Positions 1,402 to 35,774 of a stretch of 64,000 nt of DNA are shown piece after piece. Below the pieces are notes generated by a model. The model ran no database searches. It saw only the letters and a program-made list of their open reading frames with translations, and was not told the origin of the DNA. Source of the DNA: Rhodococcus sp. OK302 (lineage in GTDB: Bacteria; Actinomycetota; Actinomycetes; Mycobacteriales; Mycobacteriaceae); contig NZ_NPJZ01000001.1 of the NCBI RefSeq assembly GCF_002245895.1, positions 5,926,501 through 5,990,500 on the forward strand. The letters are read 5' to 3'. The position numbers and the translations under genes were made by a program. Each line of letters opens with the position of its first letter. Positions within the stretch are counted from its first letter, which is position 1.

Positions 1402-2721
1402 TCATCGACCTAGTCCGCGATAGATCCATCCCGCCGACCGCCAGACCGAGGGATCGAGACAATTTCGCCCGTCGACGATCACCCGAGTCCGAACTGCCGA
1501 ATCGAGTTCACCGGGATCCAGAGCGACAAACTCGGCCCATTCTGTTGCAACAAGCACGACATCAGCGTTATTACAGGCTCCCGACGTCGAAGTTGCGTAA
1601 TCGAGGGTAGGAAAGAGATTGCGCGAATTCGCCATCGCCTTCGGGTCGTAGACCGACACTGCAGCACCATGAAGTTGCATCATGCCCGCGACATTCAGCG
1701 CGGGCGAATCACGAACATCGTCCGATTCCGGCTTGAATGCGGCCCCCAGTACGGCCACGTTCATTCCCAGCAAACTTCCACCACAAGCCTCGGCAACAAG
1801 TTCAACGACTTTTGTGCGCCTTCGCATATTGATGCTGTCGACCTCCCGGAGAAATGACAGCGCCTGATCCACACCCAACTCCCCGGCCCGGGCCGCGAAC
1901 GCACGGATGTCCTTCGGCAGGCAACCTCCCCCGAACCCCAACCCTGCATTGAGGAAGCTGCGACCGATACGCGCGTCGTAGCCGAGCGCGTCGGCAAGCA
2001 CGGTCACATCGGCTCCGGTGGCCTCACAAATTTCTGCGATCGCATTGATGAAGGAAATCTTGGTAGCCAGAAAGGCGTTGGCAGAGCTCTTGACCAGTTC
2101 CGACGTCGCCAGATCGGTGACAACAAGCGCGACACCGTTGGCCAGGAGCGACTCATAGACATCCCGTAGCGCCCCTTCCGCGGTCCCCGGCCGATCACGC
2201 TCGATTCCGAACACCAGCCGATCCGGACGCAAGGTGTCGGCTACAGCAAATCCTTCACGCAGGAATTCCGGATTCCACGCAACTTCGACGCCTTCACCCG
2301 CCGGAGCAGCGCCACGAACTCGGGATGCCAACCGTGCTGCCGTACCCACCGGGACGGTCGATTTTCCGACGATCACCGTCGGCCTCGTCAACAACGGCGC
2401 CAAGGTGTCGATGACAGCGTCGACATGGCTCAGATCCGCCGCATTCTCGCCCCGCTTCTGTGGAGTGCCCACACACAAGAAATGAAGGTCGGCGAATTCC
2501 GCAGCATCTGCGTACGACGTACTGAAACGCAGTCGTCCCGATTCGAGATTCTGAAGCAAGAGTTGCTCCAGCCCAGGCTCATAGAACGGAACCCGACCTT
2601 CCCTCAACATCTCGATCTTCGCGGCGTCGATGTCGATCCCCAGGACTTCGTGTCCCAGCTCCGCCAGACACACAGAATGGGTCACACCCAGATACCCGGT
2701 TCCGAACACGGTTAGTCGCAT
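1402..2721 (-). CDS. ugd: UDP-glucose 6-dehydrogenase (UDP-glucose/GDP-mannose dehydrogenase family)
   Basis: Oxidises UDP-glucose to UDP-glucuronate with two NAD+, supplying acidic sugar for surface polysaccharide. The protein begins MRLTVFGTGYLG, the Rossmann NAD-binding loop. It continues with CVGTPQ and GKSTVPVGT of the N-terminal domain and the catalytic-cysteine motif GFGGGCLPKD (Cys about residue 267), then a C-terminal UDP-binding domain containing GAAFKPESDDVRDSP. The length of 439 aa is normal. An in-frame GTG lies two codons upstream (2727), but the ATG at 2721 places the Rossmann strand at the usual N-terminus. No strong ribosome site is visible. The gene is divergent from the tyrosine phosphatase gene and fits the neighbouring EPS locus with galU and manA. 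A GDP-mannose dehydrogenase specificity is less likely but cannot be excluded from sequence alone. Confidence 0.93.
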   Translation of the reverse strand: MRLTVFGTGYLGVTHSVCLAELGHEVLGIDIDAAKIEMLREGRVPFYEPGLEQLLLQNLESGRLRFSTSYADAAEFADLHFLCVGTPQKRGENAADLSHVDAVIDTLAPLLTRPTVIVGKSTVPVGTAARLASRVRGAAPAGEGVEVAWNPEFLREGFAVADTLRPDRLVFGIERDRPGTAEGALRDVYESLLANGVALVVTDLATSELVKSSANAFLATKISFINAIAEICEATGADVTVLADALGYDARIGRSFLNAGLGFGGGCLPKDIRAFAARAGELGVDQALSFLREVDSINMRRRTKVVELVAEACGGSLLGMNVAVLGAAFKPESDDVRDSPALNVAGMMQLHGAAVSVYDPKAMANSRNLFPTLDYATSTSGACNNADVVLVATEWAEFVALDPGELDSAVRTRVIVDGRNCLDPSVWRSAGWIYRGLGR

Positions 2722-2784
2722 GAACACTTGTTACATCTCGTGCGCAGACGAAACAGAAACCCCGAGTGGGTAACTGGCGAACAG

Positions 2785-2818: not shown

Positions 2819-3337
2819 ATGCACGTCCTATTCGTATGTACCGGAAACATCTGCCGCTCCCCTACCGCCGAACGGCTGGCGCTTGCGTTTGCCGGCGAAG
2901 CGCTCATCCCCGATTTTCGCGCATCGAGCGCCGGAACCAGAGCCGTTGTCGGGCACCCGATCGAGCCCACGGCCGCCGACGTTCTCGAGGGGCTGGGCGG
3001 CGATCCGACCGAGTTCCGCGCACGATTGTTCACGAAGTCGATTGCAGCCGAAGCAGATTTGATCCTGACGATGACCGAGCGCCACCGTGACCAGGTCCTG
3101 ACGCTGGCTCCGGCACAGTTCAAACGGACCTTCACCCTGCGCGAGGCAGCCCGCTTGGCCAGGGCTGCGGATGCGAGGGGTGTTTCGGATCTCGCTGCGG
3201 CCCGTCCGCTCCACCGAACCACTGACATCGAAGACGTCGTCGATCCGATAGGTAAGGACTCGAACACTTTTCACGCGGTGGGAAACGAGATTGCAACGCT
3301 CCTCAAGCCATTGATACTCCGAATGACTACACGCTGA
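2819..3337 (+). CDS. Low-molecular-weight protein-tyrosine phosphatase
   Basis: Dephosphorylates phosphotyrosine proteins. In EPS loci the usual partner is the BY-kinase, whose phosphorylation cycle controls chain length and export. The P-loop C-X5-R appears as CTGNICRS at residues 7-14 with the general fold intact, and an Asp-Pro general-acid candidate (DVVDPIGKD) lies near residue 140. At 172 aa it is slightly longer than the approximately 150-aa family norm. It is transcribed toward the kinase gene (3679-5124), with a bidirectional hairpin between them, and away from ugd. Its role as the kinase antagonist is inferred from context. An arsenate-reductase function is less likely because of the EPS neighbourhood. 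Confidence 0.9.
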   Translation: MHVLFVCTGNICRSPTAERLALAFAGEALIPDFRASSAGTRAVVGHPIEPTAADVLEGLGGDPTEFRARLFTKSIAAEADLILTMTERHRDQVLTLAPAQFKRTFTLREAARLARAADARGVSDLAAARPLHRTTDIEDVVDPIGKDSNTFHAVGNEIATLLKPLILRMTTR

Positions 3338-3425: not shown

Positions 3426-3533
3426 TCAGCTCAACGCGAACAGTGCTGTGACGAGAACACGTGCGAATTCGAACAACTGGTCAACCGAAGGAGCGCCTAC
3501 TGCTTCACTGATGCCCATGAGAGAACCTAGCAT
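3426..3533 (-). CDS. Small hydrophobic peptide (35 aa), unknown function
   Basis: A start ATG at 3533 is preceded by a strong ribosome site (CGGAGGAATAGA), unusually good for this window. The 35-codon frame ends with TGA at 3426-3428. The peptide begins MLGSLMGISEAVGAPS and ends FARVLVTALFALS, so it has a probable amphipathic or hydrophobic C-terminal helix and no signal peptide. It lies 145 bp downstream of the BY-kinase gene on the same strand and immediately before the bidirectional terminator, so it may be the last gene of the NRPS-kinase unit. I do not recognise a family. A small cell-envelope peptide or a membrane modulator of the kinase are speculations only. Confidence 0.5.
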   Translation of the reverse strand: MLGSLMGISEAVGAPSVDQLFEFARVLVTALFALS

Positions 3534-3678: not shown

Positions 3679-5124
3679 TCAGTGCGTATTTGACGCCAAC
3701 GCCACATCAGACCTAGGCGTAGCAGGTGCCTGGATGTCCGCAGAGTCCTTGTTCACCACCGGATCCGAGTCGTAGTAGTACTTGTACTCGTAGACTCCAC
3801 GGCCTCGTTCCGGCGTCATCGTGATCACGGTACCGAGAATGACAGCACCGACACTGCGCAGGTTGCCGACTGCCCGCGAGAACTGATCACGCTTGGTCTC
3901 CCCGTGGCGTGCAATCAGCAATGCACCGTCCGACATCGCCGACAGCACAGCCGCATCGGTAACCGGCAAGAGTGGCGACGCGTCGATGATGACGTAGTCG
4001 AAACGAGACCTCAGCTCTGTCAAAATTGTTCGTGCAGTATCAGTTCCCAACAGTTCGCTGGGATTGGGCGGAATCGGACCTGATGCGAGCACTGTCAAGC
4101 CAGTAGCGCCGTCCTGCTGGAGCACGTCGTCCAATTCGGCCTGTCCGGACAGGACCGAACTCATCCCCACACTCCCGATGATCCCGAGATACTTCGAAAT
4201 GCGAGGCTTCCGAAGGTCACCTTCGACGAGGCAAACGTTCTTTCCACCTTCAGTAAGTACCAACGCGATGTTGAGCGCAGTCGTCGTCTTACCTTCTGCT
4301 GGTAATGAACTCGTCACCACGATCACCCGTGGAGGGTTGTCAACCGCAAGAAATTGCAGATTGGTACGCAGTTCGCGGTACGCCTCGGCGCTCGTCGAAT
4401 TTCCGACGTTGAAGTCGATCGCTTGACTGACCTGCCGATCCTTGTCGAACGGGATCGTGCCTACCATCGCGGAACCGGCGATCTCTTCTACTGCCCGTCT
4501 GTCCTTCACCGTGTTGTCCAGGCGATCTCGGAGGACAGCCAACGCAATACCCAGAAGGAGGCCGACAGCGATACCGAGTGCCACGTTGCGCTCCGTCTTG
4601 GGCGACACCGGTTCACTGGGTGCTTGCGCCCGCTGTTCTACCACTACGCGCGCCGGCGGCGTCCCACCGTTGTCCGGAGTACCGAGTTCCTTTGCCATCA
4701 CAACAAATTCATCCGACAATGCATTGGCGATATCCCGAGCCTGCTCCGGCGACGTGTCCTGCACATTCACATCGATCAGCACGGTATCGGGTGCAGACGT
4801 AGCGCTCACCTTCGTTGCGAGTTCTTTCCCGGACATCCCACCGACCTTGTCCGGACCGAGAACATCAACTGTTCGCTGAGCGAGAGTTTCACCGGTCAAC
4901 AGCTTGGTGTACGACGTCACCAACTGCTGTGACAATTGATTTCCCCTGAATGCCTCGTCCACCGACGTTCCCACCGACGTGGAGACGAACAGTCGTGTCG
5001 ACGATTGATAGACGGGCGTCGAGATCAACGACGCACCAAGAGCGCCCAGCGCTGCAACTACGGTGACGACAGCGATGATCCTCCACCGCGCCTGCAGAAT
5101 CTTCAGGTATTCCTGTACTTCCAT
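3679..5124 (-). CDS. BY-type tyrosine autokinase / polysaccharide co-polymerase (Wzz + CpsD/Wzc kinase)
   Basis: Controls polysaccharide chain length and export through a periplasmic Wzz domain and a cytoplasmic ATPase that autophosphorylates its C-terminal tyrosines. Visible parts in order: TM1 about residues 16-37; Wzz-type extracellular segment; TM2 about 180-200 preceded by a Pro-containing stretch; Walker A SSLPAEGKTT with Lys279; Walker A' VCLVEGDLRKP; Walker B YVIIDASPLL; and a tyrosine cluster YEYKYYYDSDP close to the C-terminus. The start at 5124 is chosen because AAGGAG lies about 8 bases upstream and the protein then begins MEVQEYLKILQARWR, typical of the family; a longer in-frame extension exists but looks non-coding. 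It lies 91 bp downstream of the NRPS gene on the same strand. Length is 481 aa. Confidence 0.93.
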   Translation of the reverse strand: MEVQEYLKILQARWRIIAVVTVVAALGALGASLISTPVYQSSTRLFVSTSVGTSVDEAFRGNQLSQQLVTSYTKLLTGETLAQRTVDVLGPDKVGGMSGKELATKVSATSAPDTVLIDVNVQDTSPEQARDIANALSDEFVVMAKELGTPDNGGTPPARVVVEQRAQAPSEPVSPKTERNVALGIAVGLLLGIALAVLRDRLDNTVKDRRAVEEIAGSAMVGTIPFDKDRQVSQAIDFNVGNSTSAEAYRELRTNLQFLAVDNPPRVIVVTSSLPAEGKTTTALNIALVLTEGGKNVCLVEGDLRKPRISKYLGIIGSVGMSSVLSGQAELDDVLQQDGATGLTVLASGPIPPNPSELLGTDTARTILTELRSRFDYVIIDASPLLPVTDAAVLSAMSDGALLIARHGETKRDQFSRAVGNLRSVGAVILGTVITMTPERGRGVYEYKYYYDSDPVVNKDSADIQAPATPRSDVALASNTH

Positions 5125-5215
5125 CTTCGAATCTCCTTCGGCTCGAACACATCTCAACGCATCCGAGTAGTTATCACCAGTCATCCGCAGCGAGTCGTTT
5201 TCACTTCTTGACGCT

Positions 5216-8200
5216 TTAGTTCCCCACGACGAAATCGATACCCTCCCGCTCCAGTAGTACATGTGCGACAGCCGACAGTGGGCCGGCTGTGGTCATATCG
5301 GAATGCACGCAGTCCACGAAGTGCGGGCGAACTGCCCTCACGTACTCGGACCAGCGATCGATCAGTTTCGGATGGCGACATAAATCCCTTTGTGCGACAA
5401 AAATATCCGCCCGTCCGCAGTAGGGCACGCTCTCGTGATCTTTGACGATACGAGCGAGCTTCTCTACCCTCGACGCGGCAGACTCGAGCACGGCAGGAGT
5501 GACGAAGTCGAGTCTCGTTCGATTCCGGATCTCGTCGGCAACTTCTACGAAAGTCAGTGCTTTCGAACCGCTGTCAGGGCATCCCAGTCCGATCTGCGAA
5601 TACAGTTCGGACGGTGTCGGCGCCTTCTGCGATGCCGGGAGCATCTCGGGAAGCAGAGTGTCGAGTAAGACCAACGAGTCGACACCAGCGCCTGAGCACT
5701 CCAACTGCACCGCCATCTCGAGTGCGATCGTCCCGCCTGCAGACCAGCCCAGCAAGTGGTAGTTCCCCGTCGGCTGCGCCGCGCGAACTGCGTCGACATA
5801 TCTCTGCGCCAATGCCGTTACCGTGCCGGGCAATTCACCCACACCAGTAGCTTGCACCCCATACACACGCCGTCCGCCGAGTTGCGATGCGAGACCGGCG
5901 TAGCACCACGAAATCCCGCTGACAGGATGAATACAGAACAAGGGTTCACGGCGATCATCCGGATCTCCACCAAGCAGGATGATCGTATCGAGTGGATCGG
6001 TTCTGCTTCCGGATTCGATACGAGCAGCCAACGCAGCTACCGTCGGATCGCTGAACAACCACTGAACTGCAATCTCGCGCCCGGTCAGTTCACGAAGTTG
6101 TCCGGCGACCTCGACGGCGCCCAGCGAAGTCCCGCCGAGCGCGAAGAAGCTATCAGCACGGAACACGCTCTCTGTGCCCGTCGTCGCCGCGAATGCCTCG
6201 GCGACTTCCCGCTCGAGGTCCGACGCTGGTAGCTCGCCACCACCGCTGCATCCGCGCTGAGGCTCCGGAAGCTCCGACACATCGATCTTGCCGGAAGCCA
6301 GCAACGGCATGCCCGCCATGATCGTGACAGAAGCCGGTACCAGATGCCGTGGTAACCGGCCACGCACGAATGTCAAGAGACTTCCACTGCTGACATCGTC
6401 ATTCCCCGGTATCAACGAGATGTACGAATGTAGGTCAGTCCTACCGAGGTCGTCAGTCGAACCGACAGTGACCGAAGACGATACTGCGCGGTGCATTCCG
6501 AGTACAGCATCCACTTCCGCGGGCTCGACCCGGATCCCCTGCACCTGCACTTGGCGGTCGATTCGTCCGAGGAAATCCAAGTCGCCGTTGCCCCGTGCCC
6601 TTCGTGCGACATCGCCGGTGCGGTAAATCCGGGTTCCGCAACCGAATGGATCGGCCACAAATCGCTCCGCGGTGAGACCCGCGCGGCCCACGTATCCACG
6701 AGCGAGGTTTTCACCGGCCAGATACAACTCACCGGTAACTCCCGCCGGCACGGGGTGCAGACGATTGTCGAGTACGCGCGCCGTCGTCCCGAGAACTTCG
6801 GTGCCGATTGACGCTGCTCCGATTGGGCGTTCGGAGCCCGTGATCAGCTTCGACACCGTTGCAGCAACAGTGGTTTCAGTCGGTCCGTAGCCGTTGAAGA
6901 TCCGGTGATGCCTGGACCAAGCCGCGGCTAGTTCACCGGGTAGCGACTCACCCATCGACTCCACTGAGACGGGAGGTAGTGCAGTGGGGTCCATCGTCGC
7001 AAGCACCGTCGGGGTGAGCGTGATGTGAGTGACGCCGGTGCGCCGGATGAAGTCGGTGAGTTCACTGCCGGCAAAGACAAATTCGGGTCTGAGCACGAGA
7101 GTTCCAAATCCCGCTGCTGCAATGAGGATTTCGATAACGGATGCGTCGAAGGTCGGGGAAGCCGACTGTAGAACTCGCGCCGGCGCGGCTGACAGTTCGG
7201 CGTGGGACGAATACACATTCATCAGACCACGATGCGAAACGGCAACGCCTTTGGGAATTCCGGTGGATCCCGACGTATAGATGACATACGCCAAATTATC
7301 GACTCGAGGTGTTCTGACACCGGTCAACTCGGTGACCGCCGCAAGGTCTGCGTCGACGGCAATCCACTCCACCCGTGGCGGCAGATCCTCAATGGTGTCG
7401 CTCAGAGAGAGACCGAGTACTGCGCCGCTGTCCTCAAGTATCCAGTCGAGTCGCGCCGACGGTTGATCCGGATCAAGCGGAACCCAGGCGGCGCCCGCCC
7501 GCGCAACCGCCCATACTGCAACGATCCAGTAGTAGCTACGCGCTGTCGCAACTGCGACAACATCATCCGGACCGATTCCGCGCGTCACCAAATGATCAGC
7601 CAGCCGTGTAGAGGCTTCGAAAAGATCGCGATAAGTCCAGAGTTCGTCGCCGATTTCCACTGCGCAGGCTTCGGGAACTCTTGCCGCCGCTGCCTCGAGA
7701 ATCTGCCCGAAAGTCTTGGGCTCGGTCAGGTTTGGATTGCACCGAACCAAATCTCTACGCTCGTCGGACTCCAGAAGATCGATATCGCCCACCAGACTGT
7801 AGGGTTCGACAACAACAGCGTCGAGCAAACGAAATAGTCTACGTACCAACGCTTCCGCAGTCGCTGCTTCGAAGATGTCCGTGGCGAAGATCAGGCGCAG
7901 CGCCATCGACTCACCGGTGTCGGAGAAATCCCAAGTCAGGTCATACTCAGCCGCAACGCTTTTCAGTCCCGTGCCGGCGCCCTCGAACTCAGCTGCCGCG
8001 AAGCCTGGAATCGTCGTCGCCGAACCACGCCGGTACGCCAGCATCGTGGTGAACAGCGGATGCACGTTGTCTCGTCGTGGTGGCGAAACTCGCGCTACCA
8101 CTTGATCGAAGGACACGTCTGCATTAGCCAGGGCACCGAGATCGACCCGACGAACCTCGTCGAGTACTGCGGTGAACGAGTCTCCTGGTTTGACGGCCGT

Positions 8201-11200
8201 GCGCAGTGCAACGGTGCCCACCATCATCCCGACGGTTTCGCGCAGGGCCGGATCGTTGCGCACACTGACGGCAGCACCGATCACGACATCCTCGGTGGCA
8301 CATCCCCGGGCTGCCAACACCGCAATTGCGCTGTGCACCAGCATGAATAGCGTCACGCCTCGGGACCGCGCCAGATCCGCCAATCGCGCGTACAGTTCTT
8401 TACTCACCGAAGCCGAAATCACGCTGCCTCGGCCGGACGCGACTCCCCGTCGAGCCTTGTCGGTGGGCAGAGCCAGAACCTCGCCCACTCCGCCCAAAGC
8501 CCCTTCCCAGTAATTCAACTGGCGATGCGCCAGGCTCGACGGATCATCGACGATGCCGAGAATCGACTGGATCCAGCAACTGTAATCGGCGTAATCGACT
8601 GGAGCGGGTCTCCACTGTGGTTGGCGCCCTTTGCTCCGCGCCGCATAGGCAGTAGCCAGATCTTCGACGAGAGTGTCCACCGAGCTTCCGTCCAGCGCGA
8701 TGTGGTGAGCAACCGCCACCAGTGTCCTCGCGCCGGAGCCGTCGCCCACAAGTTGGACTCTGACCGGTACCTCAGTCTCCAACCGAAATGGCGTGGCTGC
8801 ATAATCTGCGATCGCCTGATCTACGTCTACTACCTCAACGGTGTCAAGATCAACTGATACAGAGCGGATCTCGCGCTGAAAAGGACCGTACTCGTCGGAC
8901 GGAAACATCGTACGAAGTGCAGCGTGTCGGACAAACACGTCTTCGATTGCCGCGGTCAAGAACGTCAGGTCTACGTCATCGCCCAGTCGCGTCGCAAATA
9001 CGAGGTTGTGTGCAGCCGATTCCCGATTGAGTTGGTGCGACAGCCACATCCGTTGTTGAGCGGGCGCCAACGGCACCCTCGACCCGGCTTTGCGCGGTAC
9101 CAGTTCCGGGCGAGCCAGTGCGCCGTTACCGGCTTCCAACCAACCGGACAACTCGCGAGGCGTCGGATGGTCGAAGACCGCACGTACCGGCACGTCAGTT
9201 CCGAAGATCGACGACAGTCTTGCGGCTACCGAGGTTGCTGCCAACGAATCTCCGCCGGAATGGAAGAAGTTGTGCCGTGCACCGAAACTGCCCGTTGCAT
9301 GCTCGGCCATCACAGCTGCGACCAACTCTTCCGAGGCGTTGAGCGCGGTATCACCATCGGCCGTTTCGCGGAAGTATTCGTACACGGCATCGGTATCCAC
9401 CTTGCCGTTTCCCGTCACCGGAAGTGCGTCGACGATCGCGATCCGACTGGGTACCAGGTATCGCGGCAAGGATTTCGCCAACTCGGAGCGAAGCTTCTCG
9501 TCGCCCTCGTCGCTGGCCACAACACAGGCAGCCAAGCTGTCCCCGAGCGTCACCACTACCGCAGCTCGAACGCCGTCACACCGACGCAGGACCGACTCGA
9601 TCTCGGCCAATTCGACGCGTATGCCCCGGACCTTCACCTGGCGATCGGTACGTCCGACAAATCCCAGCGCGCCGTCTGCGCGGCGGTGCACAAGATCTCC
9701 AGTTCGGTAGCGTCTGGTACCGCCGGGTGCCGCAACAAAGGCACCGGCTGTCGCCGCGGGATCGCCGACATACCCGATCGCCAACCCTGGACCGCTGATG
9801 TACAACTCGCCCGTCCCGGCGCACGGGACGTTTCGCATCCACGTATCCAGCACGTCGACGCCGACACCGACAATGGGTTCCCCGATCGTCACTACTTCCC
9901 GCACGTCGCCGAGAGTGGCGACGACGCTGGCCTCGGTGGGTCCGTAGGCATTGAGCAAGGTGGCGCGATCGCTCCACTTGCGGGCCGTCTCGGGCGCCAG
10001 AACGTCACCGCCCACTCCGACTACCTCGACCATCGGTAGTCGGTCCGGGTCCATCGTCTCGAGTACCGCCGGCGTCGACAAGAGGTGCGTCACACGTTGT
10101 TCCGCGATGAAGTGCTCCAGATCAACGCCTCCGTACACGTCGGAGGGAGCGACCGCCAACGTGGCTCCCGATCCGAATGCAAGCAACATCTCGAGGAGCG
10201 CCGCATCAAAGCTCGGATTATAGCTTTGCAGTACAACAGAATTCGAGGATACTCGGTATCTCCGCACAGCTTCGTCGGTCAACGGGCCGAGCCCACGATG
10301 TGTGACGGCCACCCCCTTGGGTGTACCGGTGGATCCGGACGTGTGAATGACGTAGGCGACCGCGTCGGCAATCCGGGATCCGGCTATCGGACTGTGCGCG
10401 TGTAGTACAGACCGCATCTCCCGTAGACGACTTTCGGGAAATGCCGGGTCGATGGGCGCAAAAGCTGCACCTGCCTTGGTAATTGCCCACAATTCGATTA
10501 CGTAGTCGATCCCCCGTACGGCCGGCAGTTCGAGGACCGCACCGGGTCCGGCTCCGGCTGCGACCAGTTCACGCGAGTGAGCATCCGAGTGTGCGTCCAG
10601 TTCTGCATACGTCAGCGAACGCTTGCCATCAACGAGCGCGACCCTGTCAGGGTGGAGAATTGCCGTGCTAGTGAATATCTCGGCTAGCGTGCGCGAAGTA
10701 TCAACGGGCGCAGCTACCCAAGCCGGCGACCGTTCGATTGCGATGTCCCCCACTGCTCCAGCGGGATTCCGGAAACCCACCCCAAGGATGCTGTCCAGCA
10801 GTGTTGCCACCGAGCGAGCGGTATCTTCGTCGAAAGTTCCGACCGCGTACGTGACGGTGCCGTCGAGAGCGCCGTCGGTAGCCGGCGCGAACGCCACCTG
10901 CAGCGGGAACTTTGCTTCACGAGTATCGATTTCGGCCGTCGTTACCACCAATCCATCGAAATCGAGCGAAGGTACTGCGAAGTTCTGGAAGGCCAGTGCG
11001 ACCTGAGGCGTCGATCCACCGAGCAGTTCTACGAGCAGTTCGGACGCGACATCGCTGTATTGGAACGCCGCGACATCGGCATCACGCACACGACGGATCA
11101 GTTCGCCGACCGTTTCACCGGACCGAACCTGTACCCGCAGCAGAACGGTATTGACGAACATCCCGACCGCACCATCGGAAACCGGGTGCCGTCGGCCGTC

Positions 11201-14200
11201 GACGGCTGTGGCAATCACAACGTCCTCGCTGCCGCTCAGCCTCGACAGCGCCACCGACAGCGCGGCATGCAGAACCATGAACAGCGTCACCTGCAGTTCA
11301 GCAGCCAATTCATTCAGCGCGGACACGATCCGGGGTTCGATCGAGAATTTCACTCGACCGGCCGTCGACGGAACCTGAACTGGTCCGTGATCAGAGACAA
11401 GTGGCGTCACGGACGTTACGTCCGACAGTGCAGTTCGCCAATAGTCTGTGGCCACACTGTCAGTCGGTGCGCCTGAATTCTGTTCCAGTACTGCATAGTC
11501 CGCATACTGAACGGGCGTCGACAGCCATCGGGGAGCCTGTCCGGCGCAGCGAGCACGGTAGGCCGTGAGCAGATCAGTGACAACGGGAGTCAATGATTGC
11601 CCGTCAGCAGAAATGTGGTGCACGCTCACAGCAAGCACGTGATGTGTGGCAGACAATTCGAAGAGTCTCCACCGAATCGGCAGTTCGAGTGCAAGGTCGA
11701 AACCTTCGCAGGCGAATGCCAACAGAGACGCTGCCAGCGAAGCCTCGCTGATGCGGCACTTCTCGAGGACGTGGCCGGGCGCCGGAAGTACCTCCTGCAC
11801 CGGAGGATTACCGGGGTACCGGGTACGAAGCACTTCGTACCGGTCCATCAGATCCAGCGCCGCGGACGCAAGGGCAGACACCTCGAGTTTCCCTCGAATT
11901 TCGATCGCCACGGGGATGTTGTACGCGCTGCTCGACATATCGCGCCGGTTGAGGGCCCACAGACGGTGCTGATTGCGAGAGAGGGGGACGATGTCGGGAC
12001 GCGGGCCGAGCACCGCCGCGGTAGCGGACCGAACAGCACCGGGTCCATCAGTCTCGTCAAGCACCGCTGCCAGCTCTTCTACCCGGGGATACAAGAACAG
12101 CAGCCTCAGGGGAACGTCGCGCTCCAACTCCGCAGACGCCCTCGACGTGACCATCGTGGCCGACAACGAGTTTCCACCGAGTTCGAAAAAGCTTGTACCC
12201 CGATAAATTTCATCAGTACCGAGCACGCTGGCGTATGCCCCCGCCAGTACCCGCTCGGTTGCGGTACGCGGCAATTCGTCCGCCGCCGAGACGGGTAGAG
12301 GCAGGGCATCGACGTCGAGCTTTCCGTTTCGCATCGGCAGCTCGTGTTCCACTGCGATCACCGCCGACGGAACCATGTACGACGGGAGAACCTCGACCAG
12401 ACTACGACGAACACAGTCAGTGTCGAGCACCGTCCCCAGCCGCGGGCGAACGTAGCTGACCAGCGCACCGGATCCGGATCTACCGCTGCGAAAGACAGTC
12501 GCACAGAATTCGGCGTCCGCTAAACGCCTTATCGCGGAATTGATCTCACCCGGCTCGATCCGAACCCCGTTGACCTTGAGCTGCGCGTCACTACGACCGC
12601 GATAGTGAAGGGTGTAGGCGCCGGCGCACACCTTCCACTCCGCCAAGTCACCGGTCCGATACATTCTGCGTCCACCGGCGCTCGCGACAAATCTCTCCGC
12701 TGTGAGCGCTGGACGCCCGGCATACCCCCGTGCAAGCGACTTACCGCACAGGTACAACTCCCCGATCACTCCAGTCGCTACCGGCTCGAGAAATTCGTCG
12801 AGAACCAACGCGTCGACGCCCACAATCGGTTGTCCGATCGGCACTTCGGACAGGTTACCGTCAAGTCGCCCGGTCGAAATGGCATACATCGTCGCCTCGG
12901 CTGGTCCGTAGGCATTGACAACATGCCTTCCACCACCCGTCCAACGATCAACCAGATCGCCGCCGAGCGCTTCACCGCCGAACAACAGCGCCCGAAGGCT
13001 CGGTACGTCGTCCGCCGGTACCGTAGCCATGACCGTCGGAGTTGCACAGATATGGGTAATGCCTTCTCGCCGAATAAGTTCCGCTAGTGAACTGCCCACA
13101 GACTCCGATACGGGGGCGATAACGAGCGTCGCCCCCGCCGCCCCCGCCGACAACACTTCGAGCAGCGTCATGTCGAATCCCGCAGCACCTCGATGCAGTA
13201 CTCGCGAGCCCACACGCGCCCCGAACCGTGAGAACAGATCCGAATCGAGGGAACCAAGACCGGCATGGGTGACCACAACAGCTTTCGGTGTTCCCGACGT
13301 CCCGGAGGTGAAGACCACGTAGGCAGCCGAAGCAAGCTCGAGCGTGCTCGACCCCCGTCCGGTTCCTCTGAGGTCTTCCAGGACAGTTGCAGTGCGAGCG
13401 GCAGGCTGGTCGGGATCGACCAGTACCGGTGCTGCACCGGTTTTCGCGATGGCCCACAAATCGACAATGGATTCGACAGTGCGGTCGGATGCCCAGGCAA
13501 TCAGTTGTTCCGGCCCGGCCCCGCGAGCTCTGAGCGCCGATGCGACCGTATCGGAGCGAACATCGAGTTCGCGGTACGTCAACTGCTCCGAGCCGAACCG
13601 GACGGCAACACCCTCGGGGGCAATACTGCAGCCCCTGGTCAGCATCTGGGCGAGCGAGATACCTTCCGCCGATACGGCACCACGCGCCGGGGCTGTTGCA
13701 GCACGCTCGGACGCCTCCAGAAGGTCGATCCGACCGACACGGATGTGCGAATCGATCGAGACCTGATCCAAGAGAGAGAGATAGCGTTCGGCAAATCGTG
13801 CGATCGTCGAGGCGTCGTACAGATCTGTGTTGTAGACAAAGTCGAGTGCCGTCCGTTCACCGTCGGTCACCGTGAGCTGGAGGTCGAAGTTCGAACGCAC
13901 GAAGCCGGCGTCCAGATGCGTCAGGGACAGACCTGGCCAGGACAATTCACTGCGCTGCGACTCCTGAAAGGACAGCGCCACTTGGAACAACGGATGATAC
14001 GACGTCGACCGAGTCGGCTTGATCAGGTCCACAACAGCTTCGAAGGGGAACTCGGCGTGAGCGTAGGCGGCCAGGTCCTGTTCCCGGATGTCGCGAAGGA
14101 AGTGGGAGAACGACTGCGCGGGTTCCACCGTTGTTCGCAGGACGACAGTACTCGCGAACATGCCGACCACGTTGTCCAGCTGCGGATCCGAACGTCCGGC

Positions 14201-17200
14201 AACCACGGTTCCGATCGGAATGTCCCGGCCCCCGGTATACCGCGCGAGCAGTGCGGCCAACCCGGCGTGGAGAACCATGAACATGGTGGACGAGTGTGCA
14301 ACTGCGAGGTCACCGAGTCGGGTGCGCAACGCCGGCGGAACCTCGAGACGAATCGACGCCCCGTGGCCGGATGCCTGCATCGCTCGGCCACGATCCGTCG
14401 GAAGCGTTACCTGCTCTGACAGACCAGCCAACGCTGATGCCCAGTACTCCGCGTCGACCTCGGTCGATCCGGAATTCTGCTGCCAGTGGGCGTAATCCGT
14501 GTAGTGAACGGGTATTGGTGCCCACATCGGTAGGCGCCCGATCATGTGCGCCGCGTACGCACTCGAGGTGTCTCGAATGAGGGTGTCCAGCGACCAGGCG
14601 TCAGCGGCAATGTGGTGAACGACCAGCACCAGAATGTGAGTCTGCGCATCGATCCGCAACAACTCGGCTCGCAGTGGCGCGTCGGTCCGCACGTCGAATT
14701 CGGCTTCGGCCCACTCTGCTACGCGACTCTCGTACGCAGCGTCGCCGAATTCCACGGCTTCCAACCGCGGAGCAGCCTCGGTGGTCGCCAAGACCTGTTG
14801 CCGGACAATGCCGTCGACAATCGGATATACGGTTCGAAGCGTGCGATGACGCTCGACAACATCGGTGAATGCAGCCTCGAGCGCATCCATGTTCAGATCT
14901 CCGTCAATGCGCAGGACGACGGGAATGTTGTAATTCGCTGCAGCGGAGTTCAATTGATTGAGCGTCCACATACGTTGCTGAGCGGGTGAAAGCACGGAAT
15001 CCGTGCCGGCATCGGACGCAACCAACCGTGGTCGTGATCGCCCCGAACCTGCCCTCGAACCAATCCACTCCGACAACTCCTCCACCGTCGGATGATCGAA
15101 AATGTCGCGAACATCCACGTCGAGGTCCAGTACGGCGCTCAGCCGCGTAGACAGCCGACCTGCCGCCAAGGAGCTTCCGCCCGCATCGAAGAAGCTACGG
15201 GTGAAATCGATCTTTTCCGCATTCAACAGTTCACGAAACACTCCGGCTACGGCAAGTTCCACGGGATTCCGGGCATCACGCCCCCCGGATACAAGTGGTT
15301 GCGGATCCGGTAGCGCGGCTCGATCCAGCTTCCCGTTCACAGTGACCGGAAAATTCTCCAGGCTCACGACAAACCCCGGAACCAGATGCCCCGGCAATCG
15401 ATTTCGAAGGTCACGAATCAACTGTTCGCTGTCGAGGTTCTTGTCCGGTGCGACATAGCCCACCAGCGCGGGACCGCTTGCCAACTCCCGCAGAACTACC
15501 ACTGCCTGGTCGATGTCGGGGTGTGTGAGCAGTGCACTTTCGACCTCGGCCAGTTCGATGCGGTACCCCCGCAGTTGAACTTGTGCATCCGCTCTGCCGA
15601 CGTAGAGCAAGTTTCCCTGTCGCATTCGGGCCAGGTCACCACTGCGATACATGACCGAACCGTCGAATCCCGGCTCGGGAACGAATCGAACGGCACTCAG
15701 GGCCGGCCGCTGGAAATAGCCCGACGCAATCTGTGGTCCGGCTAGGTACAACTCACCGATAGTTCCCGGCGGCACCGGATTCAACGACGAGTCCAGTAGA
15801 TACGTCCGCATTCCGGGAATCCCGGAGCCGATGGGTGAGCCGCGACCGCCTGGCACCGGACTGTTCGAGTGCTCGATCTCGAAGGCTGTAGCGTGAACCG
15901 TGGTCTCGGTGATACCGAACATGTTGACGGCGCGAATATTCCGATGCTGGTCGAGCCACGGCGTCACCTGCGAAATGTCGACGCGTTCGCCTCCCAAGAT
16001 CAGGAGTCGCACGGAAAGTTCGGCGTCCGTGGTGACTTCAGCCAACGCCCGGAACGCAGCCGGGGTCTGATTGAGAACCGAGACCTGCTCGCGCACCAAG
16101 AGTTCGGCAAAAGCTTTGGCAGACTTGGCCACCATGGAATCTACGATGACCAGACTCCCGCCGGTCGTCAGAGGCCCCCACAGTTCCCACACCGAGAAGT
16201 CGAATGCGTACGAGTGGAACATCGTCCACACATCGGCCGGCCCCAGATCAAAGTCTTGACTCGTCGCTGCCAAGAGCGCCAGCACATTTCCGTGAGAAAC
16301 GACCACACCCTTGGGCGTTCCACTCGAACCGGAGGTATAGATCAGATACGCCTGCTGTTCACAAAAACCGACCCGTGTACGAGCCGGCGCCGGATCTCCC
16401 ACAGATTTCACGTCGACAACAGTCCGGACCATGTTGCGGAATCCGCGCATCTGGTCTGCCTCGCACACGATGGCGGCCGGTACCGAGTCCTGGAGAAGGT
16501 ACGCAATGCGCGCCTCGGGATAGTCGAGGTCGATCGGGACATACACGGCGCCGCATCGCACGACAGCGATCAATGCCACGACGAGGTCTAGCGAACGGGG
16601 AATCGCCACAGCAACCCTGCAGCCGGGCCGGACTCCACCTTCCATCAACGCGCCCGCCAATTCGGCTGAACGCCACTCCAATTCGGCGTAGGTCAGCGCG
16701 TCGGCACCGAAGGTCACCGCCGTCTTCTCGCCACGTCGCGCAACCTGATTCATGAACAATTGATCCAAAGACAGTGCGCTGCAGTCAGGTAAGGAATTAC
16801 CGGGCAGCAATTCCTGCCGTTCGGAATTACTCAGCACGTCGACGCCGCGCACCGAAATCGCGGGGTCATTCGCCACCGTTTCACAGACCCGCCGCCATCG
16901 ATCCATCAGTACGGAAACAGTTGCGCCGTCAAAAATGTCGGATGCAAAGGTGACCGTCCCCGTAATCCCGCTGGGCGTGCCTTCGGCCGAACGCTGTTCG
17001 GCAACCGAGATCTCGAGGTCGAATCGAGCTTGAATCGGCGGTATCGACTTGCCCTGCAGAGTGATCGACCCCATCACCAGCGCCGGGACGGGACCGACAG
17101 CATCGAGCGCCAGCAGAACGCGAAAGAGCGGCTGCCGAACGTCGCTACCCGCAGAACTCAGTCGATCCACGACCCAGTCGAACGGAACGTCGGCATTCGC

Positions 17201-20200
17201 GAACGCCGCGAGGTCGACGTCTCGAACACGGGTGAGAAATTCCGAGTACGACTCGTCCGGTTCAACCGAGGTACGCAGCGCCACCGTCCCGACGAACATC
17301 CCGACAGTGGACTCGAATGCCGAATGGGTACGCCCCGACGTCGGTGTACCGACCGTCACGTCATCCACCCCGGCGACTCGGTGAAGCATTATCGCCAAGG
17401 CTGCATGCAGCGCCATGAAGAGAGTGCAATCATTCTTCCGCGCAACTACTTCCAATGCAGCGTGCAACGGGGCCGGCAAGTCGAACTCGATCACACCAGC
17501 CCGGATACCCTTGTCCGACAAACGATCTCTGTCGGTGGGAAGTTCCAAGGCCGGGGGCAACCCACTCAGCGTCTCCGTCCAAAACTGCAACTGCCGAGAA
17601 GCGAGGGACAGTGAATCGGACGGGTCGCCGAGCACATTCCGCTGCCAGACGGAGAAGTCTCGATAGTCCAAGGCTGCATCGCTCCGCGACGACGACGTGT
17701 CGTCCTCGTAGAACTGAACAAGATCGGCAATGATCGTCTTGAATGACAACCCATCCATCGCGATGTGGTGAGCTACAACGGTAAGCCGATGATCGGCTTC
17801 TCCCAGCGAGGTAACCACAAGTCGCAGTGGCACTTCGCACGTCAAGTCAAACCCGGTACCCACCGCCAGTGCGGAGGCCTTCCCGTAATCGTCTGCCGAA
17901 ACCTCCTTCAAATACGCTGTGTCCGAATAGTATTGGATTGGCGCACCGTGCTCAGCGAGCGGAAATATTGTACGGAGCACCCGGTGCCGCCGCGACAGCT
18001 CTGCGAACGCTCGATCCAACCGCGCAATGTCCAGCGCACCACCGAGGGCCACTTCGAAGGCAATGTTGTACGCCGACGACTGTGGGTCTCTCCGGTTGAT
18101 CAGCCACATTCTCTGCTGTGGCAGTGCAGGTTCCACCGCAATTTCCCGAGCAACTCTAGTAGGTTCGAGTTCCGCAGCGGTCCCGAGCATCACTCTGACG
18201 CGTTTGCGCAGAAGCGCCGGAGTGGGCGCGTCGAACACATCCCGAACGCCGATGTCGACGCGCAACGTTTCCCGCAGCCTACCGACTACGTGCACCGCGG
18301 CCAACGAATTGCCACCTAGCGCAAAGAAGTCGGAATCTGACCCACATACTCCGACACCGAGCACATCACCCATGACCGTCGCAATGACTCGCTCGACCTG
18401 ATCCGAGCCCGGGAGATCCGAGGGAAGCTGGACGACCGGTGCCGGTAGCGCACGGCGATCAATCTTTCCGTTGGCTGTCAACGGCCATTCGGGAAGTACG
18501 GTGATCGAGGCCGGAGTGAGCGCACGGGGCAGAATCTCGGCGACCCGCGACGCGATTTCCGACGAAACTAGTGAAACACCAACAGTTTCCAATGGTAAGA
18601 CGACGTAGGCGGCAATGCCGCCATTGAACTCGAGTGCGATCGAAGAGCTGACACCGCTCACCGACTCGAGCGCTGCCTCGACCTCGCCCAACTCCACCCG
18701 AACGCCGCGGATCTTCACCTGATTGTCCACGCGACCGACAAACTCCAGTTGATACGAATCGGACCAACGAACAAGATCGCCGGTTCGATACATACGAGCG
18801 CCCACATTCCCGAACGGCGCCGCGACGAAGCGCTCCGAGGTCAACGCCTCTCTGCGTTGGTATCCTCGCGCCAATCCTGGCCCCATGACATACAGTTCAC
18901 CGGTCGCCCCGACAGGCACCGGCTGCAATCCCGAGTCGAGGACCACGGCCGTCACACCGTCGACAGGCCGGCCAATCGTGATCGATGTGCCGTCGACCAT
19001 CGGGTCACTCATGAATACGGCTACGCTCGCTTCGGTGGGTCCGTACGAGTTCACCACTCCGGCGCGCTGTGACCAACGCTCGACAAGTGCGGGCGTCGGG
19101 CGCTCGCCTCCGACATTGACCATACGCAGATCGGGAAGCGATGCCGGGTCCATCGACGCCGGAATCGCCGGGGTGGCAATAAGATGTGTCACTTTCTCGT
19201 CACGCAGGTAATCGGCCAGCGGCACACCACCGACCAGATCACGGGGCACGACGACGCAGGTTGCGCCCGTGCCGTGCGCAAGCAGAATCTCGAGAACCGC
19301 AACGTCGAAGGCAGGGGACGCGAGATGTGCGACTCTCGCCGACGCATCGACGGCGAGACGCCGCGAGTGCGATCGGAGAAGCGACGTCATACCGCGATGG
19401 GTGACTGCCACGCCTTTCGGAAATCCGGTCGACCCTGACGTGTACACGACGTACGCCACGTCGTCGATGTTCGGAGTACGTGCGTTCGGGTGCCCCTGGT
19501 TCGAGTCCAGAATCGCTCCCGCGGTATCGATGTCAACACATCGAACCCCCGCTACCACCGTTCTGAACTGTGAACCGATCATCGCGGCCGAAACGGAATC
19601 CTCGAGAATGAATCGGATGCGCTCGTCCGGGTAGTCGGGATCCACGAACAGGAATGCTGCGCCGCATTGCACGACGGCATGTAGTGCGATCACGGAGTCG
19701 AACGATCTCTCGGCCGAGATCGCCACGACATCACCCGGTCCGATACCGAGCTCGATCAGACTGCGGCACAGATAGTTCGAACGAACTTCCAGCTCTCCAT
19801 AGGTGAGTGTCACCCCGGCGAAGCGCAGTGCGGCGGTGCGACTGCCCCCGCGCCCGGCCGCGAACACGTCTCCGAGAGTCTGGGGTGCGGACGCGGCCAC
19901 TCCCGCACAGGGCACCAGATTCCGAGACTCCGCCGGTGACAGGACCGCGAGTGCGCGGATCGGTGTCTCCTCGGGCGCGTGAACGAACTCGTGCAGTACG
20001 CGCAAGAACTGACGGTGGTGAACAACCAGATCGTGCTCGCTGTACACGTTCGGGTTCGCTTCGAAACCCACCCGTAGATCCGAGCCGACGACCGACGGAT
20101 AGATACTGAAGAAAAGATCCTCGACAGGCCCCGAGGTCAATACGTGAAACTCGCCGACAACCTCGCCGAGTCGAATGGTGTCGTGAAACATCATGACGTT

Positions 20201-21214
20201 GACCGAAGGTCCGGCGGTATCGCGACTTCCGGCCGCCATGTCCTCGTAGCGGAACCGTTGATGGCGCAGCGCTCCCACAATCTGCACTGCGAGTTGCTGC
20301 GTCAACTCCTTCGACGTCATCGTCGGATTGACGCTCGCAAACAGCGGAACAATGTTGGCCAGAGTACCGCCGGAGCGCCGCATTGCAGCCGTTGTCCGCC
20401 CCGAAACCGGCAGACTCAAGTTCACCTCGGTCGTGTCGGACATCCGCGCGAGGTAGACCGCATATGCGCCCGCAATGATCGGGACTTCGCTGGTATTCCA
20501 CTGTTGCGCAACGGTAGTGATGCGTTCCACCAATGCGGGTTCCATACTGCGCGTCAACATCCGCTGCGGCATCGAAGTCGAAGCACGCCGATCTGTGAGC
20601 CGTACCGATTCTTCAAGCTCCGACGTAACCTGTGACCAGTACTTCCGATCGGACTCGAACCTCGTCGATGATCGATACGTGGCGTCGAGTTGATGAAGTT
20701 CGTGCGCGCTCAGACGAGTCGGATACGGAATCTCTGTACCCGAGCGCAGATGTGAATAGATTTCTGCAATGCGAGTCGTCAACGACATGGCACCGTGACC
20801 GTCGAACACAAGATGATGGGCGTGCGTGTACCAGAAGTAGTGGGCCTCGCCGAGATGAAGCAACGTCGAACTGATCATCCTGTCTGCCATGACGTCGAGC
20901 GGGCGCGAATGCGCTTCCACCATCCACCGATGTGCTTGCCCGACGGGGTCGTCGACGGTCCGCAAGTCCTGGTAATCGAGACCGTCGACAATGGCGTGAT
21001 CGACAACTTGCCGGGGAACGTCATCCGTGGGTACGAGTCGGGTGTACGCCGCATCGAATTCGTGGCTACCGATATCGGTCGCCTCGACGAGTGCACTCAC
21101 ATCGACGTATCCGCGAAGTTCGACATACTGCGCAACCACGAACGGAATCTGAGGCTCGAGTTGCTGGGCAAGCCACAGAGCGACTTGCGCGCGAGACAAC
21201 GGGATCGAATCCAT
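5216..21214 (-). CDS. Five-module nonribosomal peptide synthetase, (C-A-T)5-TE
   Basis: Assembles a pentapeptide, probably N-acylated, and releases it through a type I thioesterase. Positions are counted from the ATG at 21214 (GAGAGG 8 bases upstream; a GTG three codons earlier is possible), giving 5332 aa. Condensation HHxxxD histidines are near 133, 1149, 2200, 3199 and 4170. Adenylation A3 cores are near 590, 1625, 2635, 3625 and 4645. Carrier-protein serines are at about 970, 2015, 3016, 3990 and 5030. The thioesterase GWSAG serine is at about 5158. No epimerisation, methylation or cyclisation domain is seen. Reading the binding-pocket positions by eye gives module 1 DVLINGSVAK, module 2 DFWNIGMVHK (the standard Thr code), module 3 DMLCLGAMYK, module 4 DALLGGAVVK and module 5 DAITEMGVAK. 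Only Thr is a confident substrate. Module 3 has HHIAADA instead of HHxxxDG. No MbtH-like gene or carrier-protein transferase is in the window. Followed by the BY-kinase. Confidence 0.95.
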
Positions 21215-21407
21215 ACCCGTCACCTCTCTTCCGTCGCCTTCGATTTGTGTCTGCAGAATGGCGGCTCATCACCCGGGATCGCGAGAGCACACGCCACGCA
21301 CGAACACTCTGAACCCTACTGTCTCAGTCTGCCTTTCACCACTCGCCTCCCACTCGAAAAGGCCTCACGGTAGCCTCTGCCCAACCCGAAAGTCAGGAGC
21401 GTTACGC
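21215..21407. promoter_or_regulatory. Divergent promoter region, NRPS versus DUF4012 gene
   Basis: These 193 bp separate the divergent NRPS and DUF4012 genes and must hold both promoters unless transcription comes from further away. Weak -10-like hexamers are visible (TAGCCT rightward near 21371; TAGGGT leftward near 21313), but no convincing -35 boxes or palindromes. AGGAG before 21408 is the ribosome site of the DUF4012 gene. Confidence 0.4.
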
Positions 21408-23267
21408 ATGACCGGTAATACGTCGGGACCAAAGTCCGACGATCAATCACACACCTCCGAATCAGTCCGATCTACCGATGAGGTGCGTCCCTCGACGAGG
21501 CGGCGCGTACGAGTCAAGGCCACGCGATCCCGGCATAAAATCGCGATCGGACTCGGCATATCAGCACTGGTCGTCACCGCTTTCGGGGCAATCCTCGGCT
21601 ACACCGCTCTCGAGGCGAAGTCCGATCTCGAATCCGCAAAAGACCATGCCCTCGCCGCCAAGGACGCTTTGCTCGACGGTGACACCGAGACTGCGGAGCA
21701 GGCTGCAGCCGATGCCAATCGCTATTCTTCGGCTGCCTACGCGAAAACCCGTTCACCACAGTGGAGAATCGCCTCGGCCGTACCGTTTCTGGGCAGCCCC
21801 TTCCGTACCACCGAAGAGATGGCCGACGTGGCGTCGGGCTTGACACACGATGTACTCGGCCCTGCCGTGAAGGCTGGAACCTCGCTTGCTCCAAGCACAT
21901 TGATTCAGCCCAACGGGAAGATAGCACTTACACCGCTACGTTCCGCCGCTCCTCTACTGGCCGAGACAGCTACCGCTGCGCAGGCCCTTGCTGCGCAGGC
22001 CCAGGAAATTTCTACCTCCGAGTACATCGCGGCAGTTAACGATGCTCGCACGCAACTACAGGCCCAGACGAGCGAACTGGCAAACTTACTCGACAACACC
22101 GCTGTCGCAGCGCACATCGCCCCCGCCCTGCTCGGCGCCGACGGTCCTCGTAGCTACTTCATGGGGTTTCAGACCAACGCCGAGGCCCGCGGCACCGGTG
22201 GCCTTCTCGGCGGCTACGGGATCATTCGAGTCGAGGACGGCGCGGCTCGCGTCAACACACTGAACTCCAACTCCGCACTCTCGCTGGACAATCGACCAAT
22301 AGACCTTGGTCCTGACTTCAACGCACTCTATGGACAGAGTCGACCGACCACAGATCTACGCAACAGTAACCTCAGCGCCCACTTTCCCCATGCCGCGCAG
22401 ATCTGGCAATCGCTGTGGGCCCAGGAATCGGGAGGCGAGGTTGTGAACGGCGCCATCGCCACCGATCCGATCGCGCTGAGCTACATCCTGAAAGCATTGG
22501 GTCCCATCACGATGCCTGACGGTGAAGTGGTCTCGGCGGACAACGTCGTCGAACTTACGGAGTCCACCGCGTACGTCCGGTTTGCCGAGGACAACGCTGC
22601 CCGCAAGCAGTATCTGCAGGAGATCGCCGCACGCGTCGTGTCAAAGATGACGGGGCAGATCCGTTCGCCGGCCTCGTTGCTCGACGCGTTGGGCCGCGCC
22701 GCGAGCGAGGGTCGCATCGCGGTATGGAGCGCACAGGCCGACGAGCAGAGTGTTCTCGCCGGAACGCCGTTGGGACACACCGTTCCGGACGATGCGGCCC
22801 CCTACGCGGGTGTTGTCGTCAACAACCAGGCCGGAAACAAGCTCGACTATTATCTCAGCCGAGAAATCGACTACACGGCAGGCAGTTGCACGGACGGAAC
22901 TCGCGCCTCGACCGTCACGATCCGGCTCACGAACAACGCTCCGGAAGGCGATCTACCGAACTACGTGGACGGTATGGTCGACAACCGAATCAATGCGAGG
23001 GAGGGCACGAACGTCGCAGCGCTCACTCTTCTCGCCACCCGCGGCGCCAAACTTGACAAGGTATCCGTCGACGGACGAATGACGTTTGCCGCCAGTGGAA
23101 AAGAGCAGGGACACCCGGCATATATGATCCGAGCAGCCATACCTCGAGGTGCGACGAGTGTGGTGGAATTCAAACTCACCGAACCCAGTTCGGATGGTAC
23201 GGCCCGCGTTCCGGTTCAACCGTTGGTAGACGATCCGAAGATCACGGTGAACGTACCCACCTGCTGA
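21408..23267 (+). CDS. DUF4012 domain-containing membrane-anchored protein
   Basis: Function unknown; DUF4012 proteins recur next to EPS and surface-glycan genes in actinobacteria and are predicted to lie on the outer face of the membrane. The start at 21408 (MTGNTSGPKSDD) has AGGAG at a proper distance; an upstream in-frame extension lacks one. An Arg/Lys-rich cytoplasmic segment (RRRVRVKATRSRHK) precedes a single membrane helix at about residues 46-68. This is followed by an Ala-rich helical stretch (about 70-130) and a large extracellular domain with GFQTNAEARGTGGLLGGYG near residue 255. Length is 619 aa. It is divergent from the NRPS and convergent with the pyruvyl transferase, sharing a perfect terminator. 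A role in EPS attachment or transport is inferred from location only. Confidence 0.88.
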   Translation: MTGNTSGPKSDDQSHTSESVRSTDEVRPSTRRRVRVKATRSRHKIAIGLGISALVVTAFGAILGYTALEAKSDLESAKDHALAAKDALLDGDTETAEQAAADANRYSSAAYAKTRSPQWRIASAVPFLGSPFRTTEEMADVASGLTHDVLGPAVKAGTSLAPSTLIQPNGKIALTPLRSAAPLLAETATAAQALAAQAQEISTSEYIAAVNDARTQLQAQTSELANLLDNTAVAAHIAPALLGADGPRSYFMGFQTNAEARGTGGLLGGYGIIRVEDGAARVNTLNSNSALSLDNRPIDLGPDFNALYGQSRPTTDLRNSNLSAHFPHAAQIWQSLWAQESGGEVVNGAIATDPIALSYILKALGPITMPDGEVVSADNVVELTESTAYVRFAEDNAARKQYLQEIAARVVSKMTGQIRSPASLLDALGRAASEGRIAVWSAQADEQSVLAGTPLGHTVPDDAAPYAGVVVNNQAGNKLDYYLSREIDYTAGSCTDGTRASTVTIRLTNNAPEGDLPNYVDGMVDNRINAREGTNVAALTLLATRGAKLDKVSVDGRMTFAASGKEQGHPAYMIRAAIPRGATSVVEFKLTEPSSDGTARVPVQPLVDDPKITVNVPTC

Positions 23268-29251: not shown

Positions 29252-29255
29252 GTTG

Positions 29256-30242: not shown

Positions 30243-30264
30243 GGTGTTAACTCCGGTCCTCGTT

Positions 30265-34607: not shown

Positions 34608-34619
34608 TGCGGTGCCCGA

Positions 34620-35543: not shown

Positions 35544-35774
35544 CAATCACCTTTCAGGGCAGCACTACGCACAGTCCTACTGCGTACCGCGACCGAAACA
35601 GCGTGTGGATTCCCACCATTCGCACGTTTTGTGCGAGCCGGCCGCAAATGTTGCCGCCTGGAGAAGCACTAGACCGCGAACCTACCGCACACACACCGGT
35701 CCTCGCGAGAGCAGCAACCACACTCGCGCACTACGTCCACTCCACACGCAGACGTAGGTCCCGGGCCCTTTGCC

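Follow-up and report, generated by a model that had tools for sequence, protein, structure and literature searches.

An NRPS gene set between BY-kinase and DUF4012 genes in a Rhodococcus EPS locus, and its probable role as a lipopeptide arm of the coat

Why should an EPS locus carry a giant NRPS, and does the peptide belong to the coat? The DNA analyzed here (referred to as the window) is a stretch of 64,000 nucleotides from Rhodococcus sp. OK302 (contig NZ_NPJZ01000001.1, positions 5,926,501 to 5,990,500), in which a gene for a 5335-aa NRPS (5216..21223, - strand) lies between a BY-kinase gene and a DUF4012 gene. We favor, with moderate confidence, the reading that this NRPS is the lipopeptide arm of a Wzx/Wzy-type EPS system in Rhodococcus and near relatives, and that its product acts with the EPS or anchors it. 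We do so because the NRPS and DUF4012 genes stay paired through genome rearrangement and the triad of NRPS, DUF4012 and kinase is kept in many species, and because the NRPS has a starter-type condensation domain, complete modules and a thioesterase.

The genes around the NRPS include those typical of a Wzx/Wzy EPS locus with a BY-kinase: a Wzz-fused autokinase, Wzx, Wzy, an initiating sugar-phosphate transferase (PGT) and a low-molecular-weight (LMW) tyrosine phosphatase. The kinase (3679..5124, - strand) has Pfam Wzz and AAA_31 matches, exceeds the NCBIfam cut-off for 'polysaccharide biosynthesis tyrosine autokinase', and has a tyrosine cluster near its C-terminus, as read from the DNA. It is followed by a 35-aa ORF with a strong ribosome-binding site (3426..3533, - strand), the phosphatase gene (LMWPc; 2819..3337, + strand; PF01451, 2e-24), the UDP-glucose dehydrogenase gene ugd (1402..2727, - strand) and an Hsp70/actin-like ATPase gene that runs off the end of the window (3-1364, - strand) and that, in many of the related loci, again lies close to Ugd and the kinase. 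Beyond DUF4012, and all on the - strand, Pfam identifies genes for a polysaccharide pyruvyl transferase (23325..24698), the Wzx flippase (24566..26014, longest ORF; PF01943), the Wzy polymerase (25816..27183, longest ORF; PF04932), a nitroreductase-family protein within the EPS gene run (27180..28253), two glycosyltransferases and the PGT (28313..31785), and a mannose-6-phosphate isomerase and nucleotidyltransferase (33387..35546). The nitroreductase-family gene holds the same place between Wzy and the glycosyltransferases at loci L137, L157, L160 and L168. A preliminary description of this DNA had listed DUF4012, the phosphatase, Ugd and Wzx/Wzy as neighbors of the NRPS, and Pfam agrees; the phosphatase gene is on the + strand, and so lies outside the NRPS-kinase transcription unit. 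That description also took the NRPS to be inserted in the locus, which we do not find: bins within the gene have a G+C of 0.60-0.62 against 0.56-0.62 in the surroundings, which gives no hint of a recent insertion, and an NRPS is the rule in the nearest Rhodococcus s.l. loci. Recent insertion is rejected on both the lack of a G+C break and the conservation of the NRPS in relatives.

The NRPS and kinase genes are on the same strand and separated by 91 bp (5125..5215, - strand), the spacing first reported, and their cotranscription in the window is very likely, judging from gene layout. A consensus scan of positions 4900-5500, which is a weak test, gave no promoter-like sites and a single terminator-like site inside the kinase gene on the + strand, leaving neither kind of signal in the 91-bp gap. 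Elsewhere in the genus the kinase gene follows the NRPS at no more than 129 bp in 18 of the 23 genomes that carry DUF4012, the NRPS stop overlaps the kinase start at three junctions in sister genus g27 (G209, G107 and G092), and these close gaps and overlaps support the proposed cotranscription. The two genes also abut in a second locus of G011. The synteny search that had been suggested for the NRPS beside BY-kinases thus finds it conserved, in these 18 genomes as well as in sister genera.

The NRPS was described as a single protein of five modules, and this is what Pfam and motif patterns recover; the gene ends at 21223 rather than at 21214, a difference in start codon alone. It is composed of five C-A-T modules and a thioesterase. 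With the protein searched in two pieces, Pfam reports five each of condensation stretches and carrier domains, along with AMP-binding domains and a thioesterase at the C-terminus, and the motif patterns give five HHxxxD, five (Y/F)GxxE, five YR(T/S)GD, five carrier serines and one GWSAG. The A3 pattern is matched in three of the five modules and the remaining two A3 sites were recognized by eye, so that by pattern and eye together the core motifs are present across all five; the module 3 condensation motif is HHIAADA, in place of HHxxxDG. The thioesterase, which contains the GWSAG motif, spans approximately 5219..5971 (- strand; PF00975, 1e-23), and complete modules with a release domain are what is expected of a lipopeptide NRPS.

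The condensation domain of module 1 (approximately 19904..21211, - strand) resembles the starter type, and the NRPS therefore appears, from its nearest solved relatives, to open with an N-terminal acylating domain. Its best matches among solved structures are the condensation domains of CDA synthetase I (4.9e-49), 7c1k, ObiF1 and EntF, all of which we take to be starter C domains. The N-termini of related NRPSs behave likewise, with 45 of 46 closer in sequence to the window's first condensation domain than to its second through fifth; the one that is not comes from an ORF truncated at the edge of the sequence analyzed.

Because the first condensation domain is of starter type and five modules carry adenylation codes, the predicted product is an acylated pentapeptide. 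The codes in the window are DVLINGSVA, DFWNIGMVH, DMLCLGAMY, DALLGGAVV and DAITEMGVA, of which, going by published codes, we take DFWNIGMVH to specify Thr and DALLxGAVV a Tyr-like residue. Relatives' NRPSs have three to eight modules, and among the 47 with two or more code readings DALLxGA(V/I)V is found in 43, next to last in 41 of them, and a Thr-type code in 32; the recurrent next-to-last residue is probably aromatic. The four without DALLxGA(V/I)V are three collinear triads and the NRPS of G002, whose gene is split into ORFs of 3815 and 249 aa (L035) by a frameshift or an assembly error. The idea that this code is exclusive to NRPSs of the locus was dropped: NRPSs elsewhere in the same genome carry the similar DALFIGAVA and DPLLSGAII, so that DALLxGAVV is not far from other codes, and DALLxGAVV itself is absent from those other NRPSs (eight loci sampled, 15 readings). 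There is no acyl-ligase or carrier-protein gene among the window ORFs scanned, which counts against the lipopeptide arm.

The NRPS is transcribed divergently from the DUF4012 gene (PF13196; probable coordinates 21408..23267, + strand), with 184 bp between them (21224..21407) if the probable start is used; a start at 21408 is favored over one at 21258 because most relatives are 606-630 aa long. A scan of positions 20900-21700, across the divergent region, gave no sigma-70-like site. The middle of the DUF4012 protein is LCP-like, in that residues 247-455 of its predicted model match structures of LytR-CpsA-Psr (LCP) transferases, a list of matches that speaks for the fold and is no proof of LCP function. 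The likeness to LCP proteins is confined to this fold: PF03816 (the LCP family) has no match in the protein, PF13196 being the sole family found at E up to 0.001; the protein has long N-terminal helices and a C-terminal beta domain, the latter with middling structural matches only; and the aspartates that we take to be usual in LCP proteins are apparently not kept. The profile-profile match to LCP is weak (probability 15%) and its 103-column alignment covers the second half only, and among solved structures a profile of the DUF4012 alignment picks up titin alone, at E 0.2-0.3. DUF4012 is present in 91 of the 249 genomes sampled from the order, and in 128 of 301 family genomes in 15 of 31 genera. 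Contigs labeled Akkermansiaceae, Planctomycetota and Acidobacteria (L169, L176, L177 and L188) also encode DUF4012 proteins, 49-62% identical to the window's, and are perhaps mis-binned. In the literature passages available, DUF4012 is placed only near polysaccharide genes. The protein is likely a membrane-anchored partner at the outer face, acting there on EPS chains and, in these genera, on the lipopeptide as well.

Within the genus, 28 genomes were compared, the window's own included, with kinase and DUF4012 matches taken at E up to 1e-20. The kinase is matched in 24 and DUF4012 in 23; G007, G015, G018 and G025 have neither, and in G020 only the kinase is matched. In all 23 genomes with DUF4012 an NRPS stands head-to-head with it, counting contig-end pieces in G016 and G019 and the split NRPS of G002. 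The kinase is less constant, and five genomes (G001, G002, G012, G013 and G022) retain the NRPS, DUF4012 and the 35-aa ORF with no kinase adjacent, the kinase being 1.1 Mb away in G001, 2.2 Mb away in G012, and on other contigs in G002, G013 and G022. In G001, the only one of the five with annotated surroundings, the neighboring genes are not EPS genes but encode LysR, DHDPS, a mannosyltransferase, a binding protein, an MFS protein and others. DUF4012, and not the kinase, is the tightest partner of the NRPS. The 35-aa ORF (MLGSL...PSVD...LFALS) is matched in 10 of the 23 genomes, directly after the NRPS in the five with the kinase elsewhere and after the kinase in the other five.

Two flanking genes were used as controls for synteny. 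One, an amine oxidase gene, lies 18 kb from DUF4012 in the window. It shares one large contig with the NRPS in G005, G006, G009, G010, G011 and G027, where 3.5-4.7 Mb separate the two and the triad is intact; it is about 20-60 kb away in G003, G017, G021 and G023, lies about 50 kb from the kinase and not with the NRPS in G001 and G012, and is uninformative in G004, G008, G014, G016, G024 and G026, whose copy sits on a different contig. The other, the mannose isomerase gene, belongs to the EPS genes. Apart from the window's own genome, seven (G003, G005, G006, G008, G017, G021 and G023) have it at 12-32 kb from DUF4012, the remainder having distant copies only. Simple shared synteny was set aside on the amine oxidase control, but the mannose isomerase does stay near in those seven genomes. 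Some lineages thus preserve part of the wider synteny and others have lost it, and the triad persists in both.

Beyond the genus, 40 family loci were picked by hand from DUF4012 matches to spread over genera, and 26 of these have an NRPS. The 14 without include four from sister genus g6 (G032, G097, G125 and G205), in which five further genomes of the nine examined (G062, G230, G268, G273 and G298) do have one. Among named loci, the best 80 of at least 578 confirmed, which favor near relatives and partly repeat genomes of the other sets so that the counts are not independent, an NRPS was called where an ORF has both adenylation and condensation domains. On this basis NRPSs are present in 39 of 44 loci of Rhodococcus s.l. 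(Rhodococcus, Prescottella and Rhodococcoides), in none of 31 from Mycobacterium s.l., and in none of five from other-labeled bins. Two of the five Rhodococcus s.l. exceptions (L162 and L167) have condensation-domain pieces beside DUF4012 near a contig end, and one (L207) has no NRPS trace. In the other two, L154 and L159 (Rhodococcus sp. 105337 and R. coprophilus), the kinase is directly beside DUF4012 with no NRPS between, and a condensation-domain piece lies at the far end of the stretch; the NRPS may still lie beyond it, or may have been lost or moved. The earlier statement that an NRPS is not a normal constituent of EPS loci thus fails for Rhodococcus s.l., and stands for Mycobacterium s.l. 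(none of 31 among those best 80 loci) and for four of the nine g6 genomes.

Outside the family, none of 16 DUF4012 loci (15 genomes) has an NRPS and ten have the kinase, so the NRPS is rejected as a general companion of DUF4012. Kinase and DUF4012 are thus the wider pair, to which the NRPS looks like an addition made within the family. Many of the DUF4012 loci without an NRPS carry the kinase, and since such loci are common EPS in itself does not depend on the NRPS.

The arrangement of the three genes varies beyond the genus. Of 17 loci, ten have the kinase no more than 147 bp after the NRPS and G298 has it 959 bp after; in three it comes before the NRPS, and in G268, G054 and G052 the two are not adjacent. 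In the collinear triads of G231, G115 and G087, which belong to other genera, the order is kinase-NRPS-DUF4012; in G087 the end of the NRPS gene and the beginning of DUF4012 overlap by 4 bp, as they do in G115 if a TTG start is inferred, while gaps exceed 500 bp in G231. Seven genomes of the R. opacus/jostii type have a second locus with its own NRPS and DUF4012 (L063-L071 and L074-L076), with PGT in view in six, and that of G011 also has a kinase, 46% identical to the window's. Among the named loci, those of R. jostii NBRC 16295 and R. opacus ATCC 51881 hold an NRPS paired with DUF4012.

A tree of 63 thioesterases, with long branches flagged, has one clade of 29 rows (96/100) that unites locus-1 NRPSs from the genus, from g27 and from three of the four g10 genomes. 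G083, G054, the genomes of g6 and the collinear triads are placed elsewhere, and so are the second loci, whose thioesterases are among those of other rhodococcal NRPSs. This scattered placement means that NRPS parts were swapped in place or that NRPSs joined more than once, and the association with DUF4012 is kept or regained under either history. The DUF4012 tree, in which one row scored as lacking an NRPS (L127) is from a contig that ends soon after DUF4012, is compatible with the NRPS joining once or several times.

The pairing of NRPS and EPS genes is probably long established, and its survival of rearrangement points to the peptide as a functional component of the coat. We propose that the NRPS would make a fatty-acylated peptide, of five residues here, together with the kinase that would control export of the EPS chain. 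The lipopeptide would leave the cell with the EPS and serve the coat as a lipid, surface-active or anchoring part, with DUF4012 at the outer face handling EPS chains and, in these genera, the lipopeptide. Conservation across rearrangements thus strengthens the link between NRPS and EPS that was first suggested; whether as a substituent of the polysaccharide, an anchor or a free lipopeptide, the form that the peptide would take, its chemistry and any covalent link to the EPS are matters on which we can only infer.

A bolder proposal, which we regard as rather unlikely, is that the lipopeptide is the acceptor and membrane anchor of rhodococcal EPS, with the LCP-like DUF4012 moving the finished, Wzy-made chain from its lipid carrier onto it to give a lipopeptide-anchored polysaccharide. 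The LCP-like fold of the model and the persistence of the NRPS-DUF4012 pair in genomes whose kinase lies apart are consistent with such a transfer, and the Thr and probable Tyr codes, if their presumed meanings are right, would supply hydroxyl acceptors. DUF4012 is also found without an NRPS, however, and needs another acceptor or role there, and the faint profile-profile match and the apparent absence of the LCP aspartates speak against a transferase of this kind. Somewhat less probable again is a free surface lipopeptide, either a biosurfactant or an antibiotic, whose regulation would coincide with that of EPS simply because life at surfaces calls for both. A starter domain with a thioesterase is the usual lipopeptide plan, and the range in module number is as may be seen in secreted lipopeptides, but close pairing with DUF4012, elsewhere a protein of polysaccharide loci, is not expected for a free surfactant, and the C-terminal code is largely conserved. 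That the genes have no functional link and are neighbors through shared ancestry is very improbable, for although conservation is clearest among related genera, many of the genomes compared are closely related and the mannose isomerase also stays near in some, the triad is kept where the amine oxidase gene is megabases away in six genomes, two gene orders exist, and the NRPS-DUF4012 pair is repeated at a second locus.

The lipopeptide arm that we favor can be compared with two known systems. Mycobacterial glycopeptidolipid (GPL) is an NRPS-made acylated short peptide bearing a few sugars, which are added singly by glycosyltransferases. The window's system would be alike in placing an NRPS-made acylated short peptide with sugars in the envelope of a mycolic-acid bacterium, and differs in having Wzx/Wzy, the BY-kinase and DUF4012 as neighbors and in release by a thioesterase; the terminal reductase of the GPL type was not found at the NRPS end, where Pfam reports the thioesterase. 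With Wzx/Wzy EPS loci that have a BY-kinase and phosphatase it shares the kinase, LMW phosphatase, PGT, Wzx, Wzy, Ugd and pyruvyltransferase, and it is the NRPS that sets it apart from the DUF4012 loci of Mycobacterium s.l. and of other families.

Such a role would give an orphan group of giant NRPSs a testable place in the cell envelope, rather than as makers of an antibiotic or siderophore, and points to a function for DUF4012; if DUF4012 does join the two polymers, this would be its first function and the product a new kind of envelope glycolipopeptide. A lipopeptide that anchors or modifies EPS could also help to explain the lipid-rich slime of rhodococci and their life at oil-water boundaries.

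In the open-licence literature, a scope that excludes most subscription journals, we found no description of the NRPS-kinase-DUF4012 linkage. The nearest is PMC12298843, whose Table 3 includes NRPS-type clusters among 'putative exopolysaccharide-related' clusters of Rhodococcus, one of them weakly similar to a glycopeptidolipid cluster and one type occurring in 24 strains; these NRPS rows rest on 3-27% cluster similarity, and the accessible parts describe no kinase, DUF4012 or gene-order link. The NRPS-2 family of Ceniceros et al. 2017 (PMC5550956), from an NRPS cluster 'conserved in most rhodococci' in the portion available, may be that of the window; the main text of that paper, as available, has no words beginning 'polysaccharide' or 'kinase'. 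The EPS of another strain, R. erythropolis PR4, described in the accessible portion of PMC12786566 with neither a gene link nor a mention of peptide, contains Gal, Glc, Man, GlcA and pyruvate together with stearic and palmitic acid. Its sugars would fit the window's pyruvyltransferase, Ugd and mannose genes, and its fatty acids are a hint of a lipopeptide that is suggestive only.
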